Shown here piece by piece: positions 987 through 28,683 of a stretch of 28,683 nt of DNA. How positions within the stretch are numbered: position 1 is the first letter of the stretch; each line of letters opens with the position of its first letter. The notes beneath the pieces were generated by a model, which was not told the origin of the DNA, searched no databases, and was given only the letters and a program-made list of their open reading frames with translations. Source of the stretch: a virus. The translations under genes and the position numbers were made by a program. The stretch spans positions 1 to 28,683 of IMG/VR virus record IMGVR_UViG_3300027759_000331; one strand, 5' to 3'.

Positions 987-1388
987 TTAAATATCAAACG
1001 TTGTAAATATTTCTACTTCTTCGCGTTCTAAAATCACTTTTTGTAGTTCTTCCTGAATGTTTCTAAGGTCTAAATAAGTTTTGCAATCGATTACTTTTTG
1101 CTCTAGATAGCTGACTTCTACTCTTTTGTTCAGTTTTTTTGTAAGTCCTAGTTTCTCGGTGACATCTAGTTTAATGATTTTAAAATCTTCGTATTTGCTT
1201 AGCTTGTCATATTGATTCAAAGCAAACAATACCGTTGCATGGTCACGATTAAACATTTTACCTATTCTTATAAGGCTCATTCCTTGATTTCGTAGATACT
1301 TGTAAAGTACATTTCGTGCGTATACTAGTTCTCTTTTTCTGCAATTTGATTTTAAATCGTACTCCTCAATTAGTTCTTCTATTGTCAT
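987..1388 (-). CDS. DnaA domain IV-like DNA-binding protein
   Basis: A 133-residue protein whose N-terminal half (about residues 17-62) looks like the DNA-binding domain IV of the replication initiator DnaA: helix RKRELVYARNVLYKYLR, then SLIRIGKMF, then the DnaA signature region NRDHATVLFA (Arg48, Asp49, His50, Thr52). There is no AAA+ ATPase domain, so it is not a full DnaA. The remaining 70 residues are charged and unrecognised. The ATG overlaps the upstream stop by four bases (ATGA). Position in an early operon with SSAP and exonuclease suggests a role in origin recognition, competition with host DnaA or transcription control; which of these is inference. Confidence 0.75.
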   Translation of the reverse strand: MTIEELIEEYDLKSNCRKRELVYARNVLYKYLRNQGMSLIRIGKMFNRDHATVLFALNQYDKLSKYEDFKIIKLDVTEKLGLTKKLNKRVEVSYLEQKVIDCKTYLDLRNIQEELQKVILEREEVEIFTTFDI

Positions 1389-2399: not shown

Positions 2400-2636
2400 T
2401 TATTTTATTTTAGGTTGACAATCACATCTTACAAAATGGCTCTCATCTCCTTCGCCATCATCGTACCATCCTTGCTCACAATCTTCACATTCGTTCATCG
2501 CATCAAAGTTTTTAAACTCACGCAAAAAGCTGATATCTAAAATGATTTCCTGCGAGGGTTGATGTATTGCAATATCAAACTCTTTTCCGTTAATCAATAC
2601 CTTTGCAAAATCTTCTGTTAGTTCTATAATTATCAT
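2400..2636 (-). CDS. Hypothetical early protein with C-terminal zinc-binding motif
   Basis: A 78-residue protein. The N-terminal half is a small beta/alpha segment (IIIELTEDFAKVLINGKEFD, EIILDISFLREF). The C-terminal third has CEDCEQGWYDDG ... FVRCDCQPK, a CxxC plus CxC pair that resembles a half of a DnaJ-type cysteine-rich knuckle and probably binds one zinc. Function unknown. The ATG overlaps the upstream stop (ATGA, 2633-2636). Confidence 0.65.
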   Translation of the reverse strand: MIIIELTEDFAKVLINGKEFDIAIHQPSQEIILDISFLREFKNFDAMNECEDCEQGWYDDGEGDESHFVRCDCQPKIK

Positions 2637-3076
2637 AACTCAAGTTTAATTTGTGTTAATACTTGAAGATATGCGCTCCATAAACGTCTGCTTCCACGTT
2701 GACAACAATCTAAATCGTTCTCTCTTCTTTCAACGTACCATTTTGGCAAACAAGGTTCTTGAAGCCATCCTTTGATTAATTCAATTCGCTTGTCCATATC
2801 TTGTGCCATCTGCAAAAGTTGGTTAGCTTTTTCCTGTAATTCAATTACTTCATCCTTTGTAATTTTGTCTGTTGAAATAATTTTCATTGCTTCTTCTTCT
2901 CTAATTTTCCATGCTGCGATTTCAGTCTCTGATTTTGCGTACTTAACGTAAGCTGCTACTTTACGACTAATTGCCTCTTCAACTGAGATGTTTAATCTTG
3001 TTGCCATTTCTTGACAATCACTAATCATGTTAGTGATAATGTTTTGATTTTCGATTACTGCTTGTTTTGCGTTCAT
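2633..3076 (-). CDS. First gene of the early operon, hypothetical helical protein
   Basis: A 147-residue, mostly helical protein starting MNAKQAVIENQNIITNMISD. It has long heptad-like stretches (DEVIELQEKANQLLQMAQDM) and a C-terminal segment with Trp and Cys (PKWYVERRENDLDCCQRGSR). Not recognised. The frame is open to an ATG at 3118, but that codon lies inside the -7 box of the promoter at 3112-3141, upstream of the expected transcription start. I therefore place the start at 3076, which also has an A-rich leader (AAAAAAACAAAATT). It is the first gene after the promoter and is coupled by ATGA to the zinc-motif gene. Confidence 0.65.
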   Translation of the reverse strand: MNAKQAVIENQNIITNMISDCQEMATRLNISVEEAISRKVAAYVKYAKSETEIAAWKIREEEAMKIISTDKITKDEVIELQEKANQLLQMAQDMDKRIELIKGWLQEPCLPKWYVERRENDLDCCQRGSRRLWSAYLQVLTQIKLEL

Positions 3077-3111
3077 AATTTTGTTTTTTTGTTTGTGCCT
3101 TATTGACCTTA

Positions 3112-3141
3112 CAAACATACTACAATTATTTAACTTACAAA
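3112..3141 (-). promoter_or_regulatory. Bacteroidota-type promoter for the early operon
   Basis: On the minus strand: -33 box TTTG (3138-3141), 18-bp spacer, -7 box TATGTTTG (3112-3119). This is an exact match to the Bacteroidota primary-sigma consensus TTTG-N(17-20)-TAnnTTTG. Transcription would start near 3105, about 29 bases before the ATG at 3076. It is the cleanest promoter in the window, as expected for an early promoter read by unmodified host polymerase. Confidence 0.7.
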
Positions 3142-3177
3142 CATTTTTGTTAATAAAAGTGCAAAATAAGGGTAAAT

Positions 3178-3217
3178 TACGTAAAACTACGTAGAAGAAT
3201 ATACGTAAAACTACGTA
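3178..3217. repeat. Two 16-bp iterons with internal dyad (operator or origin candidate)
   Basis: TACGTAAAACTACGTA occurs exactly at 3178-3193 and 3202-3217, a 24-bp period. Each copy is itself an inverted repeat (TACGTA, AAAC, TACGTA), and each arm is a palindrome. The pair lies 37-76 bp upstream of the -33 box of the early promoter and just past a terminator, so it is not coding. I see no further exact copy elsewhere by eye. It fits a dimer-binding site for a regulator or an initiator. Confidence 0.6.
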
Positions 3218-3225
3218 GATAAACT

Positions 3226-3253
3226 AAAAAAGCCCCCAATCTCTCGGAGGCTT
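3226..3253 (-). terminator. Intrinsic terminator after the DEDD exonuclease gene
   Basis: On the minus strand: stem AAGCCTCC / GGGGGCTT (one A-G mismatch, loop of eight) followed by a run of six U. It lies 42 bp past the stop of the exonuclease at 3296 and shields the early promoter region from read-through. Confidence 0.75.
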
Positions 3254-3295
3254 AACCTAACACAAACAAAATTATGAACTATGATTGATGCAAAC

Positions 3296-4066
3296 TTACA
3301 AATTATTCTTCATTTTCCATTGTAAATAGTCTATAAATGTTTTGTTGTTTATTTTATAGCTTGATTTGTTGCATGAATTACAACTCATGTAATGCTGAAT
3401 AGTTCCCGCTGGAGTTGTGTATGTTTTGCGTAATCTTATTTCGTAGCTTTGGCACTCTGGACATCCAAACTTTTCACCACCTCTTAATACTGAGTAGTTT
3501 ACTTTGTGCTTAGAATAAGGTGCAATTTTCTCATAGACTTTCTCTAGTACAATAACATCCATGTTGCAGTACTCAACCATTCTTTTAAGAGCATCTGCAT
3601 CCTTATCAAATATGATTGACTTCCACATATCCATTCCCTCATGCTTCAGTTTTGCACCAACACCAAGAAATTTAGCTATGTAGTCTAACTTATTTGAATT
3701 GAAATTAAACTGCGATTTAGCGTGTTTAAGAGTGTCTATACTTTGGTACTGCGGAAACATATCCAAACCATGAAATAAGCATCTTGTACGAAGCCATTTG
3801 ATGTCGAATCTATCTCCGTTGTGCGCTATGATTTCATCTGCTTTATTTAGTTCTTTGATAAATGCTTTGAGTAGTTTTTTATCGCATTGGTTAGTGTCCC
3901 AAGTTAAGTTGTGTACTTGGTCTTTCCCTTCCCACTTCCAACTAACGCAAATAATAGCACGCTCTTTTATGATGTCATCTGGTTGAATAGTTAGATTGTA
4001 GCCACTTCTCCAAAAGATACCGATGTTAAAAGAGGTTTCGATGTCCATGAATAGTCTCTTTTTCAT
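3296..4066 (-). CDS. DnaQ-like (DEDD) 3'-5' exonuclease with C-terminal zinc ribbon
   Basis: A 256-residue RNase H-like nuclease. Exo I motif FMDIET (Asp8, Glu10), Exo II motif IIAHNGDRFDIKWL (Asp85 or Asp88), and Exo III YCNMDVIVL (Tyr166, Asp170, the Y-x3-D form) give a complete DEDDy active site of the YprB / family B polymerase proofreading type. After residue 200 there is a zinc ribbon: CPEC (202-205) and CNSC (229-232). No DNA polymerase domain is attached and no polymerase gene is in the window, so it may trim ends, degrade host DNA or assist the host polymerase. It is coupled by ATGA to the homing endonuclease upstream and followed by a terminator. Confidence 0.85.
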   Translation of the reverse strand: MKKRLFMDIETSFNIGIFWRSGYNLTIQPDDIIKERAIICVSWKWEGKDQVHNLTWDTNQCDKKLLKAFIKELNKADEIIAHNGDRFDIKWLRTRCLFHGLDMFPQYQSIDTLKHAKSQFNFNSNKLDYIAKFLGVGAKLKHEGMDMWKSIIFDKDADALKRMVEYCNMDVIVLEKVYEKIAPYSKHKVNYSVLRGGEKFGCPECQSYEIRLRKTYTTPAGTIQHYMSCNSCNKSSYKINNKTFIDYLQWKMKNNL

Positions 4067-22350: not shown

Positions 22351-22774
22351 CTACTACCGTTATCTTAATTTCGTTTATCTCTTTGCCGTTTGTCGTTACA
22401 TCTGTACCTTCTTTGATTCCGTTAAGGCGTGCAGTTAAATTAGGTGCTTTATATTTACCTGTTAACGTTCCTGACACTTGGTCAGTTTCCCACTCCTTTC
22501 TTATACACGTAATGACTCCAAGATAATCATTATATGCTTTTTCTTGATTGTCTAAATACTGACAAACATTAAAGCCTTTCACTCTATAAACATACGCTTC
22601 AAATCCACTTCTTAGTAATGGCTTTCTTATACTTAGTTTTACGATGTCTCCTTTTGGTGTTGCTTGTTCTATTATGTCGCACCCTACTTGTTCTTTGTAA
22701 TCATCCCAAAGTTTCAATAGTTCTTCGGGTGTCTCTATGTACTTATTTTTTCCCATAGTTCGTTTTTTTGTCAT
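22322..22774 (-). CDS. terS: Terminase small subunit
   Basis: A 150-residue protein: YIETPEELLKLWDDYKEQVG, RKPLLRSGFEAYVYRVKGF, NDYLGVITCIRKEWETDQVS, then TGKYKAPNLTARLNGIKEGT. This is the layout of phage terminase small subunits of the P22 gp3-like type, which bind the pac site and stimulate the large subunit. It overlaps TerL by 29 bp and the HAD gene by ATGA at 22774. A second ATG at 22756 (Met7) has the leader CGAACTATG seen at other genes here and may be the real start. Confidence 0.8.
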   Translation of the reverse strand: MTKKRTMGKNKYIETPEELLKLWDDYKEQVGCDIIEQATPKGDIVKLSIRKPLLRSGFEAYVYRVKGFNVCQYLDNQEKAYNDYLGVITCIRKEWETDQVSGTLTGKYKAPNLTARLNGIKEGTDVTTNGKEINEIKITVVGGDSSNENI

Positions 22775-23452: not shown

Positions 23453-23986
23453 TTATAATGTATTTATTTTATTCGTGTTTTCGTAATTTCTAATTTCTTC
23501 TTTCATTTCTACTATCAACAAGTGAGCCGAAGCAGTAGAGATATTAAAGTGTTCAGCTATTCGTCTTGTAGTACAGATACCTTTATCGTAGTACGCCTGA
23601 AAGAAGTATAGTTTTACTCGGTCATTGATTTGACTTCGATACAATTCTATTATGTTCTTTTGCTCGTTGTATTTTAGTTCAAGTAAAATCTTTTCTGCTA
23701 GGTCGGTATCTTCTACCTCTGGAATATAATCACTTTCTACTGAGTTAATCAATTCTTTCTTGCTCTCGCTATTCCAAAGTACCTCCGCTTTTATTGATTC
23801 AAAAAGTAATGCTTTAGCTTCGTACTCTTCGATTATTATTCCTTTGTATTGAAGTGTTCGTAGATAGGCATTGTTTATTACCGTATCAGCATTTAGCTTT
23901 GACTTTAAACGATGTAAGAAGTAGTTAGTGTACCTGTTTACCTCTTTGTAGTTTCGTTGGATGTAGTTGTCAAGTAGTGCTTTCAT
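23453..23986 (-). CDS. Sigma-like / HTH transcription regulator candidate
   Basis: A 177-residue, highly helical protein. The C-terminal region (residues about 138-166), KGICTTRRIAEHFNISTASA followed by HLLIVEMKEEIR, is a helix-turn-helix of the sigma-70 region 4 / LuxR kind. The N-terminal helices (FLHRLKSKLNADT) are not a recognisable sigma region 2. It sits upstream of the terminase, where many phages place a late-gene regulator. The ATG at 23986 is preferred to a GTG at 24028. It may act at the repeat-flanked promoter near 24415 (inference). Confidence 0.55.
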   Translation of the reverse strand: MKALLDNYIQRNYKEVNRYTNYFLHRLKSKLNADTVINNAYLRTLQYKGIIIEEYEAKALLFESIKAEVLWNSESKKELINSVESDYIPEVEDTDLAEKILLELKYNEQKNIIELYRSQINDRVKLYFFQAYYDKGICTTRRIAEHFNISTASAHLLIVEMKEEIRNYENTNKINTL

Positions 23987-24173
23987 ACCATTCAATAAAG
24001 TTCTTGTACCAAATCTTTCTTCTAACACTTGAACAGAAGCATTCTTTGTCTACTTCGTTTGTGATTCGTGTTTTTATAGCCTTGAGCCTATTCAATGTCA
24101 CCTTTGCCGTACGTGTCACTTCGTCAGCATCTCGAAGGCTTTCTATAAATATCAATTCATCTTGTCCAAACAT
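23970..24173 (-). CDS. Hypothetical late protein
   Basis: A 67-residue protein starting MFGQDELIFIESLRDADEVT and ending SVRRKIWYKNFIEWYESTT. It has a Cys pair (ECFCSS) and a C-terminal segment (Rxx.W....FxEWYE) that resembles small proteins next to regulators in Bacteroidota phages. Not named. An upstream ATG at 24209 is possible but would overlap the membrane protein gene by 58 bp. It overlaps the HTH gene by 17 bp. Confidence 0.55.
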   Translation of the reverse strand: MFGQDELIFIESLRDADEVTRTAKVTLNRLKAIKTRITNEVDKECFCSSVRRKIWYKNFIEWYESTT

Positions 24174-24823: not shown

Positions 24824-24861
24824 AACTTTGAATTATTTAGTGTTTAACTTTGAATTATTTA
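24823..24861. repeat. 17-bp direct repeat at a gene start
   Basis: TAACTTTGAATTATTTA at 24823-24839 and again at 24845-24861 (22-bp period; on the minus strand TAAATAATTCAAAGTTA, followed by TG of the start codon at 24823). It looks like a local duplication of the translation start region. Confidence 0.7.
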
Positions 24862-24902
24862 TTCCTTGTTTTTCCATTCTTTCCATGTGTCGAAGTCTTT
24901 TA

Positions 24903-24983
24903 CTACTTATTTTTACCAATTTTGTAACCTACATAAAACCACAGAGCAAAACCTATATGTGATATAATTAATATCCAAGTCAT
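24903..24983 (-). CDS. Possible 26-residue membrane peptide
   Basis: A tiny frame coding for MTWILIISHIGFALWFYVGY and six more residues (KIGKNK), one hydrophobic helix with a basic end. It begins 14 bp after a weak hairpin/U-tract. In other frames the same stretch ends in VKDFDTWKEWKNKE, which looks like the end of a phage protein but lacks a start codon; a frameshifted or decayed gene is therefore possible. The rest of the gap 24824-25044 holds only the 17-bp repeat and the hairpin. Confidence 0.3.
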   Translation of the reverse strand: MTWILIISHIGFALWFYVGYKIGKNK

Positions 24984-24996
24984 ATTATTTTTATTT

Positions 24997-25019
24997 AAAA
25001 ATACTCTTGACAAGAAGTA
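24997..25019 (-). terminator. Weak terminator after ninG
   Basis: On the minus strand: TACTTCTTG / CAAGAGTA (one bulge, very small loop) followed by UUUUU. It lies 26 bp after the NinG stop and may end the early operon. The stem is poor. Confidence 0.35.
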
Positions 25020-25044
25020 CCTAGTTTGTAAATACTATTTAGTG

Positions 25045-28355: not shown

Positions 28356-28683
28356 TTAATTAAATATTTGTTTTAAACTTAGGTAGTAGTCACGTGCTAC
28401 CTCTACACGTTGTTTTACTTTTTCTATTGCTTTGTTATCTCGTTTGATTATAAATCGTTTTACTCTTAATTCTAAAGGAATATGACTAAAATCATGCAAT
28501 GCCTGTACTGCTTCTCTTACATCTAAATCTTCATCAATTAAATTCAACTTCCAATGCGCTCGTCTTACTTCGTCTTCTACTATTTGATGCGGAGTATTTG
28601 TAAGGCAATAAACTAGTTCAGCTTCTTCATGTCCTGTTAGCATCATGTATGCTTGCATCTGCCAAAAATAGTCTTTATTTTTT
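28356..28683 (-). CDS. YqaJ-like viral recombinase exonuclease, C-terminal part (enters from window edge)
   Basis: The frame is open from base 28683 (KNKDYFWQMQAYMMLTGHEE) and ends at 28356. The segment NKDYFWQMQAYMMLTGHEEA followed by ELVYCLTNTP is the conserved C-terminal half of YqaJ-type exonucleases (Q-x-Q-x-Y motif, then 'a.lvY.l.ntP'). It is the missing end of the gene that starts at 346. An internal ATG at 28658 should not be taken as a start. In this family a few residues (about 8-10) usually lie between the DIK-containing segment seen at base 1 and NKDY, so about 25-30 bp are probably missing at the join. The stop is followed after 1 bp by the candidate SSB. Confidence 0.85.
   Translation of the reverse strand, partial: KNKDYFWQMQAYMMLTGHEEAELVYCLTNTPHQIVEDEVRRAHWKLNLIDEDLDVREAVQALHDFSHIPLELRVKRFIIKRDNKAIEKVKQRVEVARDYYLSLKQIFN

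Follow-up and report, generated by a model that had tools for sequence, protein, structure and literature searches.

What the pair of short repeats in front of the early operon of this phage does, and which protein would read it, is the question raised by this locus, which lies in a window of 28,683 nt (the whole stretch of DNA analysed, from an IMG/VR virus record). The sequence TACGTAAAACTACGTA occurs at 3178–3193 and again at 3202–3217 with 0 mismatches each and has no further exact copy in the window; a scan of the whole window that allowed up to 3 mismatches to the 16-mer added a single site, at 22630. Each copy is a dyad in which AAAC is flanked by two palindromic TACGTA arms, the start-to-start distance is 24 bp, and the exact direct repeat extends over 18 nt, a feature for which 300 Markov simulations of the window gave no equal (0 with an 18-mer repeat within 60 bp). 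A sequence-only reading had described the pair in the same terms, correctly in coordinates, spacing and arms, and had proposed that it may be either the phage origin or the operator for a regulator that the early operon encodes. The features needed for the argument are the following.

3202 to 3217, minus strand: promoter-distal dyad TACGTAGTTTTACGTA, from sequence match and comparison of arrays
3178 to 3193, minus strand: promoter-proximal dyad TACGTAGTTTTACGTA, ending 58 nt before the −7 element
3138 to 3141, minus strand: early-promoter −33 element TTTG, read from the sequence and the published consensus (PMC6847099)
3112 to 3119, minus strand: early-promoter −7 element TATGTTTG, from the sequence, relatives and the published consensus (PMC6847099)
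3230 to 3253, minus strand: intrinsic terminator (hairpin, −15 kcal/mol) that closes the upstream operon and immediately precedes the array
2633 to 3076, minus strand: first early-operon gene, product of 147 aa without family assignment, start codon probably at 3076
987 to 1388, minus strand: DnaA domain IV-like protein of the early operon (PF08299, 3.7e-11)
3296 to 4066, minus strand: gene for a 3'-5' exonuclease, situated upstream of the array and used as the anchor for finding relatives

Read on the minus strand, the array is TACGTAGTTTTACGTA-N8-TACGTAGTTTTACGTA and occupies about −110 to −71 relative to the early promoter, the order being exonuclease gene, hairpin terminator, array, 58 nt, −7 element and early operon. 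The pair does lie between two operons, as had been stated, with the qualification that both are on the minus strand and that a terminator separates the array from the upstream gene. The claim that 3119–3295 is the only non-coding stretch needed correction: the listed ORF 2633–3118 starts inside the promoter, the stretch becomes about 3077–3295 when 3076 is taken as the start codon, and a second gap, 24824–25044, also lacks any ORF of at least 50 aa. A perfect 16-bp inverted repeat, AAACAAAATTATGAAC, at 3071–3086 and 3264–3279 encloses terminator, array and promoter; an invertible promoter was considered and rejected, since inversion would lead to an early stop codon, and the repeat was judged to be shared leader sequence. 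Elsewhere in the window, the protein encoded at 23453–24028 (minus strand) weakly resembles YlxM-like helix-turn-helix proteins (PF04297, E 0.017) and is possibly a late regulator. The window ends (1–345 and 28356–28683) seem to encode, in different frames, the two halves of one exonuclease-like protein, which gives the record the appearance of an almost complete genome that is circularly permuted.

The adjoining consensus promoter is present (TTTG-N18-TATGTTTG, 3141–3112, minus strand) and is kept in relatives, but judged from its elements it is of the Bacteroidetes sigma-A type, with TTTG at −33 and TAnnTTTG at −7, and not of the E. coli sigma-70 type. The Bacteroidetes consensus is TTTG/TANNTTTG, and a G at −9, which is rare and nearly absent among Flavobacterium johnsoniae promoters (PMC6847099), is present in the −7 element TATGTTTG of the window.

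Seven related records (L015/G001, L023/G002, L042, L006, L058, L059 and L060) carry the array, in all cases exactly 58 nt from the −7 element. In L058–L060 the terminator lies much farther from the array than it does in the window, but the array-promoter distance is unchanged, which argues that the array belongs to the promoter. The search for the 16-mer in related phages, which the sequence-only reading had suggested, thus turned up relatives with the array at a constant position but also near relatives that lack it: L096–L100 have the same terminator and an exonuclease 91–93% identical, L093 (G013) has the same promoter, and the early genes are still retained in the near relatives without the array. 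The array-less L103–L110 have a different pair of direct repeats, GCTATAACCTTAAATT, spaced by about 36 bp, downstream of the exonuclease gene and upstream of the early promoter; this pair is perhaps a different operator.

Like iteron or DnaA-box origins, the locus combines short direct repeats, an AT-rich gap and a nearby gene for a DnaA-like protein (the domain IV assignment of the earlier reading is borne out by the Pfam match), and the presence of a single array per genome would also suit origin iterons bound by this protein or by another initiator. It differs from such origins in having two copies only, in being locked to a promoter and in showing no linkage to the initiator-like gene across relatives. 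The DnaA-like protein is present in every array-less relative tested and is 97% identical in L093 (G013), whose promoter region has no array, which makes it an unlikely partner requiring the array; conversely, no DnaA_C domain was found in the unrelated array-bearing phages G024–G033. The window holds fewer DnaA-box-like sequences than chance would give (27, with 46.7 expected). The GC skew is monotonic with no turn at 3.2 kb, an observation of little weight since nearly one-directional coding dominates it. With the promoter spacing fixed within phage groups and the 16-mer also found at bacterial promoters (see below), a DnaA or origin element is disfavoured and, in our judgement, very unlikely, and the proposal that the DnaA-like protein binds an origin here is not supported.

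The array was sought in other phages by scanning for four TACNTA arms at the array spacings with the spacers left free; conservation of the arms is therefore partly built into the scan, but the scan pattern does not account for the conserved spacer and first-arm G among phage arrays. Three further phage groups with differing early genes have two to three units with a 24-bp period in the same orientation before promoters. The distance from array to −7 element is 59 nt in L062, L063, L068 and L083, 69 nt in L065, L079 and L087, and 49 or 50 nt in a group whose records are 18–64 kb long and have two or three units each, and in which the −7 match is often imperfect. With 10.5 bp to the helical turn, the offsets of the arrays from 58 nt amount to −0.86, 0, 0.1 and 1.05 turns; the spacings are near whole turns, which is suggestive for a comparison of four groups only. 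The spacer is GTT[C/A/T] in most phage units, as in the bacterial sites described below, the second arm is frequently TACTTA, and each genome has one array of two to three sites. The array pattern was also present in L064, L066 and L086, with no promoter at these distances; TACNTA runs in L074, L075, L078, L081, L082, L084 and L092 were rejected as low-complexity noise, and comparison of the promoter region with cultured-phage records gave chance matches only.

With the window, the 69-nt group has structural genes in common and very few early genes, and the 59-nt group a few early genes; the stretches compared in the large 49/50-nt group gave no shared gene apart from one small ORF that matched weakly. 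At least one member of the latter encodes a protein that we take, from its translation, to be GroEL-like. An array that adjoins an early promoter, with a dimer spacing of 24 bp resembling that of cooperative operator pairs, could be an operator for a repressor or activator that the phage itself encodes; lambda OR1-OR2 is such a cooperative pair. We consider this improbable: protein comparison gave no window protein common to all array-bearing groups, no GerE (LuxR/GerE-type) domain scored above the cut-off in the array-bearing phages examined, and near relatives that lack the array keep the early genes. Because the array-bearing phages examined offer neither a GerE domain nor a window protein common to all groups, a host factor is the simplest partner.

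Searches of 397 Flavobacteriaceae genomes gave 241 matches to TACGTAGTTNTACKTA, spread over 72 genomes, against 8 for the reversed control; a longer motif, CTACGTAGTTNTACKTAG, was too strict (2 matches in 199 genomes). The phage 16-mer is identical to this Flavobacteriaceae chromosomal site. The chromosomal 16-mers are often tandem, 140–340 bp apart, each preceding a promoter and a short hairpin-terminated unit resembling a small RNA, with the layout 16-mer, 23 nt, TAnnTTTA, CTATTAAT... and hairpin terminator (L170:4211-5000, L175:3397-4050, L210–L225). The 23-nt distance from site to TAnnTTTA accounts for 70 counts and the next most frequent offset for 9. A search of Rfam with two chromosomal loci and the window gave no match for the sRNA-like units. 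One Flavobacteriaceae genome, G385 (L225–L227), contains the 16-mer 40 times; nine of these copies belong to consecutive sRNA-like units of about 140 bp. The bacterial arrangement places one dyad at about −51 to −36, a usual activator position (class II); the two or three phage dyads are further upstream and out of phase with that position. The full four-arm array was found at only 9 loci in bacterial genomes, which makes the double array largely a property of phages. Double arrays occur in Lacinutrix (L160, L165 and L166), that of L160 lying between a glutamine synthetase gene and a gene for a curlin-like repeat protein, and L165 and L166 look alike.

The gene directly adjoining the chromosomal sites encodes a NarL/FixJ-type response regulator with Response_reg and GerE domains, the layout also of VraR, NarL, RcsB and DesR, which are its PDB matches; the Lacinutrix-type gene lies at L170:3436-4065. 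This regulator gene is present in 34 of the 34 genomes with at least two sites, compared with 176 of 397 overall (Fisher test, 1.4e-13, computed on related genomes as if they were independent). Among 26 genomes paired by hand the site lies within 1.8 kb of the regulator gene, usually within 50 bp, and in genomes without an exact site near variants (TACGTAGAAGTGCGTA, TACGTAGACCTACGTA and others) adjoin the gene at 19 of 20 regulator loci. By this association of site and gene, the 16-mer is the predicted chromosomal regulatory site of a NarL/FixJ-type regulator family. As to the second of the functions first proposed, the operator fits the fixed promoter distance, but its assignment to a regulator encoded in the early operon gives way, the same 16-mer adjoining a bacterial regulator family. 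That the array site is a host regulon site would also allow a decoy, in which the array, multiplied along with the phage genome, would titrate the host regulator and the phage promoter would not be directly affected; as the distance from array to phage promoter is fixed and close to helical, and each genome has no more than two to three sites, this is the least credible of the readings, and we give it very little weight.

Another host DNA-binding protein, whether a further LuxR-HTH regulator, a member of a different family or an architectural protein, might bind the array, the likeness to the chromosomal site being then one of a shared half-site only. The phage arms tolerate TACTTA, and Bacteroidetes MAGs (L161, L163 and L164) have TACGTA arrays of 24-bp period which in L161 and L163 adjoin CheY-like genes and a different NarL-type regulator gene (31% identical). 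Agreement with the bacterial sites nevertheless extends to the asymmetric GTTN spacer and to the promoter-facing orientation, and we regard another host protein as unlikely, though less so than the alternatives above. The response-regulator family beside whose genes the identical 16-mer stands remains the best candidate partner.

Fixed spacing and common orientation favour regulation of the promoter over a decoy or an origin. The reading that we prefer, with moderate confidence, is that the array would be an upstream operator, probably activating, for a host NarL/FixJ response regulator co-opted by several phage lineages. Each 16-mer would be one dimer site for the LuxR-HTH regulator, two dimers would sit 24 bp apart on the array, and the bound regulator would most likely activate the early promoter from upstream; early expression would then follow the signalling state of the host, and the early genes are probably wired to a host sensor. 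Activation is suggested by the position of the array upstream of the promoter, and we infer the binding of the regulator, its presence in the phage's own host and its activating effect. More tentatively, and short of calling it probable, we suggest that a Flavobacteriaceae NarL/FixJ-type circuit drives tandem small RNAs from TACGTA-N4-TACGTA and that several unrelated phage lineages, large phages with GroEL among them, have each tapped it on their own, so that their early genes may fire according to host state.

The closest precedents are host response-regulator sites at promoters of other phages. CtrA sites, which evolved independently, are concentrated in the intergenic promoter regions of several lineages of Alphaproteobacteria phages, with binding and regulation established by experiment (PMC9437464), and, as described in the same article, Spo0A sites lie at promoters of the virulent Bacillus phage phi29, where Spo0A suspends lytic development. 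The CtrA phages resemble the present ones in having such sites at promoter regions in several lineages; they differ in phylum, in having many sites in gaps or terminal repeats where we find one compact array of two to three dyads at a fixed promoter distance, and in that CtrA binding is demonstrated and that proposed here predicted. CtrA is of the OmpR-type response-regulator subfamily, unlike NarL/FixJ. The phi29 case, on the description cited, is alike in its host response-regulator site at phage promoters and unlike in that lytic development is suspended, whereas the upstream position here suggests activation, and in the DNA-binding domains. The work names in Flavobacteriaceae a site, TACGTAGTTCTACGTA, a regulator family and tandem sRNA-like units of which the literature searched gave no description. 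If the proposed reading is true, the array would add to the CtrA and Spo0A cases a counterpart from the Bacteroidota, with phages reading host signalling at their early promoter.
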